Shown piece by piece: positions 14,518 through 45,304 of a stretch of 64,000 nucleotides of DNA. The position numbers and the translations under genes are program-made. The first letter of the stretch is position 1; the number at the start of each line of letters is the position of its first letter. Origin of the DNA: Branchiostoma floridae (taxonomy: Eukaryota > Chordata > Leptocardii > Amphioxiformes > Branchiostomatidae); NCBI RefSeq assembly GCF_000003815.2, contig NC_049990.1, positions 14,697,180 to 14,761,179 on the forward strand, given 5' to 3'. Below the pieces are notes generated by a model that worked only from the letters and a program-made list of their open reading frames with translations, ran no database searches and was not told where the DNA came from.

Positions 14518-17500
14518 CTAGTACTTCTCGTCTGTAACAGTCCGGAGGCTTGTGTATTTATCCTCATCCAGGCGGGACAGATTGATGTAGTCCTGTGAGA
14601 GATAGCAGAGTATCTGAGTTAAGTACGAGGCATTTAGGCGTGTAAAAAAACGTAGGCAATCTTGATGAAATTACTAATTGTGATGGGAAACTGATGTCCC
14701 ATTTTGTTTCAACACTGCCCAAATGCATGACTTAAGCTAACAGTTACACCAAACGACTTGCCACGCTTAAACCATCCATATCCTAGTCTACTGTAGTTGC
14801 TGTTCAAAGTTAACCCATAAAAAGGACCATGTTACTCCTTATACACAATGACTTCCATCATGCAAAAGATGCAATGAAGAAATAATCTGAAAACAACACG
14901 TCCCTGTGTTACTAATTAAAGACTGATCAGTTCTCCATATTTTTGCTACCATGCACAGGGATCTGGAATATAACCCACAAGGCAGTCGTATTTTGCAGCA
15001 ATCGAGTAGACTGTATGACTAACAGAGAACCACGTACCTGTTCCCTTTGCATCAGTGTTCGCAGAGTCTCCTCGATGTTCTGGAACTCAGGCCTCTGGTC
15101 AGGATGATCATTCCAGCAACTCAGCATGAGGCTGTAGCTAAAGATATAACAAACTGTTTTACGACCTCAAATACCTTATCCATTGATGTTTAACATTTGG
15201 CGTATTATTAATACCCCTTCACATTGAGCGAAAAGTGATCGGACGATGAGTTTGCGAGCACCAAATGACATTTTCGGTGGGCAGTAGCACGTCCGTTTTT
15301 TCTGGACCAGTACGCGAATTTGAGTGATCGTTGGCAAGTTTTAGGAGTGTTGTCGAAAGCCAACATTTCCAAGCAAGTACAAATAACTTCCCTTCGCATA
15401 TTCTCTATACAGTATATGGATGTGTGTAGAAACACCAAAGCATGATCAGATATTTCGAATTTCCTTACTTTTGATATTTGAATGGTTGGAATAGTGAACA
15501 AAGGCCTACTCTGAATGTCATAAGTACAACCACAGGGGTGAAGTTTTCCAAAGCAACCCACATACTAAATTCACTCCATGTACCATGTCATGTTAACCTA
15601 CAAAAATAAAACACGACATTCTTCCACGCGGTATTTGTTGCAAAACAGAGACAAATGCATATATGACTAATAATTATTAGAGAAACCAATCTATTGTCTA
15701 CTTAATGGGATGGATAATTGTATAATGACTTACAGGCTGCTATCACAGTGCGGCGGTTTCCTCATCCTGTAGCCTTGCTGCACACTGTCCATTACGTCAT
15801 GTTTGGACATTCCTGGATAGGGCGTGGCTCCTGGGAGAAAAGACAACGTTGAGACTAACCGGACTACAATACACTTCTAGCAACCATGGCAACTGTGCAA
15901 TCCACAGAACCGTTATATCCAACACTTCCATTAAAGTTAGGAGCACTGGTGGTTTCCTTATCCTGTTTTATTTACATTTTACATATCCATTGTGAGTGAT
16001 AGTAATGGACCATTTGACGTCAGGCTTTCCATTGGGTTTCCATTGTGTTAGATACAGTGATGAGTTGTTCAAGAGGAGAGAGAGAATACTGAGCAGTTGT
16101 TGGTTCTTCCCCTTATGAAAATCAGCTACCTGATTTAGACCAAGTTAGGGGTGGAAGTGTAAGTTTTTGATACACAGACGTATCATGAGCAAGTTGTGAC
16201 TTTTGTGGTTAAATATATGTTCACTTCAACTTTGTTGAGGTATGCAACTGAGTAGATTCTTCAGTACTCGTGACATACGCGCTAAGTGATCGAAGCATAA
16301 TGTTATATAGTATATATAACAAAAGCAGTCATTTCTCAAGTACTCACTCTATAGACATATATCAAAAGAAAAACAGTGAATCATAGCTACTCTGTTATAT
16401 ATATTTCCTTACGTTCAATGATCCTTCGTCAATATTCACAGTTGCCAGGTTGAGAAATAACGTTATCCAGCATGTGAAACGATATATATCTTCCACCATT
16501 AGTAGCTAACAAAGGAAACAAAAAGCATGGCAAAAGTTTCTAAAGGTAAAATTACCGAGGGTGACGATCTCCCAAAGCAGCACTCCGAACGACCACACGT
16601 CAGTCTTGGAGGTGTACTTTCGGTGGAACAGCGATTCGGGTGCCATCCAACGCACTGGCAGGCGGGTCTTTAATATGTGATGGTTCGTTTAAGATCATTA
16701 CAACACACATGTAATAACCAATCCATCAATTACAGTGTACGACATAATTATTGGAAGCAACTTTAACTGTTTTAAACCTTATCAAAGTTGAGAAAGAAGA
16801 AAGGATTTAGAATGTTCATTTCAGAGTAGTATCAGTGAGTGTCCAACCCTTATGCCTGTGTTATGAATGGAAGCTGGTGTGTTGGGCCAAAGGGCGGTTA
16901 TACCGGCTATATAGATACAGATACAGATACAGATACAGAAAGATCTCAACCAATCTTTATTGGCTTTGAAATGCCTGACTAGATTGCTTTCCACAGATTA
17001 TGACAAATAATATATATATTAACATGGCCATTTATGTTTCATTAAGAAAACTCCACCTTAGTAGTTCTCTCGTACTCATCCCCCTCACGAGAGAAGCCGA
17101 AGTCTGACACCTTACACGCTTTATCTGCAGAAACCAGGACGTTCCTAGTGCCAGGTCACGGGGATGATCTNNNNNNNNNNNNNNNNNNNNNNNNNNNNNN
17201 NNNNNNNNNNNNNNNNNNNNNNNNNNNNNNNNNNNNNNNNNNNNNNNNNNNNNNNNNNNNNNNNNNNNNNNNNNNNNNNNNNNNNNNNNNNNNNNNNNNN
17301 NNNNNNNNNNNNNNNNNNNNNNNNNNNNNNNNNNNNNNNNNNNNNNNNNNNNNNNNNNNNNNNNNNNNNNNNNNNNNNNNNNNNNNNNNNNNNNNNNNNN
17401 NNNNNNNNNNNNNNNNNNNNNNNNNNNNNNNNNNNNNNNNNNNNNNNNNNTAGCGTAGCTTTGTATCTAGACTCAATTCTACCATATTATTGGCCATTTT

Positions 17501-45304: not shown

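Follow-up and report, generated by a model that had tools for sequence, protein, structure and literature searches.

The known propeller-bearing and Ig-bearing receptor kinases form separate classes, and we know of no vertebrate protein that combines a propeller head, an Ig stalk and a kinase. A locus of the lancelet Branchiostoma floridae, for which an initial annotation proposed this very combination, raises the question of whether the domains belong to one receptor gene or to adjacent genes. We examined the 64,000-nucleotide stretch of DNA that carries the locus (hereafter, the window; C12:14697180-14761179) and searched the genome assembly of the same animal (513 Mb, 431 contigs). With considerable confidence, we favor a single gene for a single-pass receptor tyrosine kinase, in which a tail shared with a gene family (Ig1-4, membrane span, juxtamembrane region and FGFR-like kinase) would have gained an LRP-like signal peptide and propeller-EGF head via phase-1 introns.

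Anchored exon search with phase bookkeeping reproduced the 23 exons proposed initially on the minus strand, from the ATG at 45304 to the stop codon ending at 14518, with GT/AG at the modeled junctions (Table 1). The encoded order is signal peptide, YWTD propeller, EGF module, four Ig domains, one membrane span and a tyrosine kinase; the signal peptide (simple filter), the single span (by eye) and the intracellular kinase identify the product as a receptor tyrosine kinase. The claim that all exons join in frame held for 21 of the 22 junctions, the exception being K3/K4, which lies in an N run, with exon 19 two bases short. Pfam profiles supported the propeller (Ldl_recept_b, 1.2e-40, four stretches), the EGF-like module, the kinase (PK_Tyr_Ser-Thr, 1.1e-77) and, above the curated cut-offs, Ig2-Ig4, with Ig1 falling slightly below threshold (Ig_2, 26.7 bits; cut-off 27). 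Six propeller blades were counted by eye, blades 1 and 6 being degenerate, and the kinase motifs VAVK, helix-C Glu, DFG and APE were likewise recognized by eye; the region of the HRD histidine coincides with the damaged edge of the gap. The gene model is not a chance assembly of exons, because homologous exons with the same cuts are present elsewhere in the genome. None of nine long ORFs elsewhere in the window matched any Pfam family at E 0.01 or better.

Table 1. Exons and other features of the modeled receptor gene (positions within the window)
Feature	Position	Strand	Basis or comparison
Exon 1, ATG and predicted signal peptide (21 protein letters not shown)	45244..45304	-	better of 2 signal-peptide-like candidates
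Exon 2, propeller blades 1-2	44342..44578	-	Pfam; 76% vs L031 exon
Exon 3, propeller blade 3	28458..28620	-	Pfam; 81% vs L031
Exon 4, propeller blade 4	26710..26837	-	Pfam; 78% vs L031
Exon 5, propeller blade 5	26296..26464	-	Pfam; 67% vs L031
Exon 6, propeller blade 6	25994..26097	-	exon model; 48% vs L031
Exon 7, EGF-like module, 6 cysteines	24360..24485	-	FXa_inhibition 1.8e-13; 74% vs L031
Head-stalk intron, 527 bp	23833..24359	-	AATAAA 24190, ATTAAA 24117; signal-peptide scan
Exon 8, Ig1, 4 cysteines	23581..23832	-	internal exon in C17 relatives
Exon 9, Ig2	22841..23122	-	Ig_3 2.4e-11; 72% vs C17 A and B
Exon 10, Ig3	22092..22370	-	Ig_3 1.2e-10; 66% vs C17 gene A
Exon 11, Ig4	21535..21804	-	Ig_3 2.8e-14; 60% vs C17 gene A
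Exon 12, membrane span	20853..20969	-	sequence reading; 59% vs C17 gene A
Exon 13, juxtamembrane 1	20410..20456	-	exon model
Exon 14, juxtamembrane 2, YQSL	19811..19864	-	exon model, motif search
Exon 15, juxtamembrane 3, TYQGL	19254..19298	-	exon model, motif search
Exon 16, kinase glycine loop and VAVK lysine	18954..19128	-	exon model, Pfam
Exon 17, kinase helix C glutamate	18447..18539	-	exon model, Pfam
Exon 18 (K3), kinase hinge and insert	17974..18155	-	90% vs C17 A and B
N run, 280 N, before catalytic-loop exon	17171..17450	.	scan for N runs
Exon 19 (K4), catalytic loop (RDLA) and DFG	17057..17168	-	start from AG 17170-17169, relatives' cut
Exon 20, kinase APE region	16556..16667	-	exon model, paralog comparison
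Exon 21, kinase C-lobe	15734..15830	-	exon model, paralog comparison
Exon 22, kinase C-lobe	15038..15137	-	exon model, paralog comparison
Exon 23, C-tail (24 protein letters not shown) and stop	14518..14592	-	71% vs C17 A and B

The description of the head as LRP-type was borne out by a search of PDB chains: the best single-propeller PDB chains, practically tied, are LRP6 propeller 1 (212.2 bits, 1e-61) and LRP4 (211.6 bits, 1.5e-61), and the head aligns with the LRP6 E1 propeller at 39% identity. Propeller-EGF paralogs are numerous in the genome, with a large share, among the matches listed, on C12. One of these, L031 (C12:19.46 Mb), located 4.7 Mb from the window on the same chromosome, matches all six head exons one for one at 48-81% identity and continues into a further propeller, by which it reads as a multi-propeller LRP-like gene. 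The region C12:19.38-19.68 Mb holds a cluster of LRP-like propeller-EGF exons, including several genes with more than one propeller. This cluster is a possible source of the head of the window gene.

The Ig-kinase part has relatives of a different kind. With the sequence from Ig1 to the C-tail as query, the best genome matches were two C16 genes whose kinase is encoded by one exon; around an Ig2 match on C17, two tandem multi-exon genes, A and B, carry the same kinase tail. In the C17 pair, Ig1 and Ig2 are 60-72% identical to those of the window gene, and the kinase and C-tail exons 50-93%. Gene A carries all four Ig exons; gene B has Ig1, Ig2 and a 25-residue match to Ig3, with two further Ig exons between, and no Ig4 counterpart was found in it. 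The heads of both consist of V-like and other Ig exons, and no match to the propeller was detected in 49.6 kb of C17 sequence. For 17 of the 23 exons the cuts were checked visually, and they either coincide or differ by whole codons; the window gene shares with the C17/C16 family homologous Ig, membrane-span, juxtamembrane and kinase exons with the same cuts. The K3 exon has 18 genome matches, 14 of them with at least 79% identity, and the tail of the window gene belongs to the family that these 14 loci form, in which different heads also occur. Among the matches listed (at least 130 and at least 145, by eye), the locus in the window is the only one of the 14 with a YWTD match within 1 Mb. Head reading covered five of the 14 loci, the other nine being four on C17, two on C7, two on C15 and one on C10; in the minus-strand gene of C16, an N run hides the head.

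The kinase of the window gene is 78-80% identical to those of the C17 genes, 69-70% to those of the C16 genes and 45% to that of FGFR1. The phylogeny suggested in the initial annotation nested it in the C17/C16 family: in a tree of 11 kinases, the window gene groups with C17 (support 0.854), C17 A with B (0.977) and the family with C16 (1.000), human FGFR1 being the next neighbor among the kinases in the tree (0.912). Loci L008, L017 and L018, with no match to the motif filter, were left out of this tree, as were L002 and L003, which coincide with the C16 genes. In the PDB search, FGFR1 is the nearest named kinase (235 bits), followed by RET (231 bits), which is outside the tree; the top row is an EGFR tandem construct, whose total adds together two copies that score 123.7 bits apiece. 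FGFR1 is also the nearest named kinase for a C16 relative. Orthology of the window gene to FGFR was rejected, given that its kinase groups with C17/C16 and FGFR1 falls outside. By sequence similarity, the locus C4:13549285-13553449, which is outside the tree, is the better FGFR candidate: one stretch is 80% identical to FGFR1 over 49 residues, and its other two matches are 56% and 46% identical.

Several further observations concern the relatives themselves. In C17 gene A, an FN3-like exon (L046:8261-7917; 24.8 bits, cut-off 25) lies between Ig4 and the membrane span. At locus L019 (C16:16611500-16621000), two members of the tail family stand head to head; each encodes its kinase in one uninterrupted exon, whereas introns divide that of the window gene. 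An EGF exon (L019:6268-6399) upstream of the plus-strand gene is its putative head. The single-exon C16 kinases could stem from a spliced tail that was retroposed. Long tyrosine-kinase ORFs, each in a single frame, form arrays at C12:0.60-0.98 Mb, C8:24.05-24.14 Mb, C7:24.41-24.54 Mb and C10:15.158-15.172 Mb; many of these ORFs span about 900-970 codons from stop to stop and are apparently intronless there, and one of them, L005, has an Ig domain (Pfam) and EGF-like cysteine patterns (by eye) before the kinase.

Pairwise dN/dS was 0.16 for the propeller-EGF head against L031 (288 codons), 0.25 for the Ig-kinase part against C17 A (669 codons) and 0.21 against C17 B (597 codons, a value that takes in the alignment of a noncounterpart Ig4 and a weak one of the membrane span). 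When head changes were polarized with up to five other propellers, 18 amino acid and 35 synonymous changes were assigned to the window branch and 25 and 14, respectively, to the L031 branch, with 37 amino acid differences unpolarized and the synonymous polarization rough at such distances. The low dN/dS values and the polarized changes indicate that both head and tail have been kept by purifying selection.

Whether head and tail form one gene is decided at the joint between the EGF module and Ig1, which is an intron without N. The 17 introns measured as far as K3 run from 125 to 15721 bp, a span that includes its 527 bp; the pyrimidine tract of its acceptor, before Ig1, is poor (score 2.3). 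The C17 relatives have Ig1 as an internal exon with other Ig exons ahead of it; a phase-1 intron leads into it, and its start and phase are those seen in the window gene. Phase-1 agreement is common at Ig/EGF junctions and is weak evidence alone. A simple hydrophobicity and donor filter, which could miss an unusual first exon, flagged two exons on the gene strand of 45400-23833 as encoding a signal peptide and ending in a phase-1 donor, that of the model and another at 45034. Both precede exon 2. From exon 2 to Ig1 it found no independent first exon for the Ig-kinase part, and the opposite strand of 45400-23833 gave 0 candidates. Upstream of the gene (64000-45401), the same filter gave six rows (four start codons, three in a CA/TG repeat), and an alternative first exon may lie there. 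Nine C17 exons (heads, FN3 and the two extra Ig), searched against the whole window, matched at E <0.1 only the Ig2 and Ig3 of the gene itself, on which grounds a nested propeller gene or alternative C17-type heads in the window were rejected.

These observations bear on three competing readings. Two same-strand neighbors, a short secreted propeller-EGF protein (an LRP-like fragment) and a separate Ig-type receptor kinase, might have been wrongly chained, an error with precedent, given that false fusions of adjacent genes in lancelet gene models, refuted by ESTs, are described in the available text of PMC4967905. The joining intron holds an AATAAA (24190) and an ATTAAA (24117), and reading on past the EGF donor adds 24 residues before a stop, with the AATAAA following; except via this read-through, the head is without an ending of its own. 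However, the signal-peptide scan for exons with a phase-1 donor offers the kinase part no first exon of its own in the interval from exon 2 to Ig1, the two parts are only 527 bp apart, and Ig1 is internal in the C17 genes, so that we consider wrong chaining quite improbable. The one-gene reading is supported because of the paralogs, the lack of a competing signal-peptide exon from exon 2 to Ig1 and selection, and the architecture proposed initially is upheld in this respect. The stop and the AATAAA behind it would also suit a gene with two products, in which intronic polyadenylation in the joining intron yields a secreted propeller-EGF decoy besides the full-length receptor. Such hexamers are, however, occasionally expected in a 527-bp intron of 64% A+T, and we regard a decoy as unlikely; it would be compatible with the one-gene explanation rather than exclusive of it.

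The third reading accepts the fusion but holds that the kinase is dead by a real frame lesion in exon 19, the chimera decaying into a decoy or a pseudogene. Exon 19 abuts the N run that contains the K3/K4 junction, its first bases are two short relative to both C17 relatives, and a phase-0 reading that starts at the AG beside the gap runs into a stop. Both deficits, however, lie within about 30 bases of the N run, and exons 20-23 keep dN of 0.04-0.32 against dS of 0.68-2.89 (versus C17 A). Since the exons that follow exon 19 are conserved (K5: dN 0.04, dS 0.68, C17 A), we consider an error at the contig end more probable than a true lesion, and we rate decay as very improbable. The other N runs, 33929-34028 (100 bases) and 42657-42888 (232 bases), are both in the 15.7-kb intron (15721 bp) between exons 2 and 3; the join across it is supported indirectly, because the flanking exons match the same paralog, L031, in order. 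From blade 3 through K3 (17451-33928), there is no N run of at least 5 bases.

If the locus encodes a single receptor, the question of its ligand arises. In LRP6 E1, the positions corresponding to the high-bone-mass sites of LRP5 are D98, R141, G158, N185, A201 and T240, as given in the available part of PMC10089208, and E73 and E115 are acidic residues reported, in the accessible text of PMC7585440, as contacts of the basic residue that follows the NXI motif. Neither acidic residue is kept in the window head, where E73 is replaced by H and E115 by R. All six high-bone-mass positions are identical, which may be general to YWTD propellers. The alignment thus suggests that the pocket floor of LRP6 E1 is kept and its acidic rim is not; the Wnt/LRP-type ligand coupling suggested initially is hypothetical, and a Wnt-inhibitor-type ligand is possible. 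On the intracellular side, the juxtamembrane region contains YQSL-x11-YQGL (window 19864-19254; aa 753 and 768 of the model), a spacing of the YxxL pair before the kinase that we take, by consensus, to be ITAM-like. Paired YxxL motifs occur with x11 and x7 spacing in the two C16 genes, and YQSL and TYQGL are on neighboring exons in C17 A and B; DYINL in the tail is presumably a Grb2-type YxN site.

Domain order, exon cuts, the homology of heads and tails and selection are read directly from the DNA; from them we infer how the receptor could have arisen and worked. The ancestral head would have been replaced (or preceded) by an LRP-like signal peptide and propeller-EGF unit, probably from a donor on the same chromosome, through phase-1 introns. 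The propeller face would bind a ligand, soluble or on another cell, with the Ig stalk keeping the propeller away from the membrane; ligand-induced dimers would trans-phosphorylate, and the conserved tyrosines (YQSL, TYQGL, DYINL and YTSL) might recruit SH2 proteins. More broadly, the family may represent a plug-in platform, in which V-type Ig, EGF and LRP propeller-EGF heads have been swapped at phase-1 introns onto a conserved Ig/membrane-span/kinase tail with an ITAM-like YxxL pair, a notion for and against which we see roughly even chances.

In a literature search, mostly of open papers and with the D'Aniello 2008 survey of amphioxus kinases, which may describe the gene, outside its scope, none of the titles and abstract starts listed described this domain order. 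If the fusion is true, it would be a clear example of a receptor gaining a new sense while keeping its signaling tail, with relatives of both parts recognizable in the same genome, and a natural chimera for asking whether an LRP propeller drives a kinase directly. The window gene is also a check case in the dispute, as presented in the available text of PMC4967905, about domain novelties in lancelets and whether they are genuine or arise from faulty prediction.

The closest known systems each share part of this architecture. The C17/C16 kinases have in common with the window gene the Ig, membrane-span, juxtamembrane and kinase exons (C17) or the kinase (C16), and differ in their heads, which are V-like and other Ig exons in C17 and a candidate EGF upstream of the C16 plus-strand gene. 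FGFR1-4 resemble it in being nearest in kinase by PDB score, in the Ig ectodomain and in a kinase insert of similar length (alignment), whereas the window gene has four Ig domains plus the propeller-EGF unit, and its kinase shares 45% identity with FGFR1. Ros/Sevenless carry YWTD propellers on a receptor kinase. Their propellers stand beside FN3 repeats, which are absent from the window gene: no Pfam FN3 model passes its cut-off in the modeled protein (only FN3_IL27B_N, on Ig4, with 14.4 bits versus 42), and the C17 FN3-like exon found no match in the window. LRP5/6, LRP4 and LRP2 share the succession of propeller and EGF module, but the window gene has only one propeller, followed by Ig domains and a kinase, and its identification as LRP5/6 was rejected, with one propeller-EGF unit rather than four, no LDLa in the model and no PPPSPxS by eye. 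A further parallel is MuSK, an Ig-type kinase working with an LRP propeller, that of its co-receptor LRP4. No Frizzled domain was seen in the window protein (Pfam), and its kinase is FGFR-like by PDB score; if the plug-in platform is true, the LRP-type sensor and the Ig-type kinase that vertebrates divide between two proteins, LRP4 and MuSK, would in the lancelet be held in one chain.
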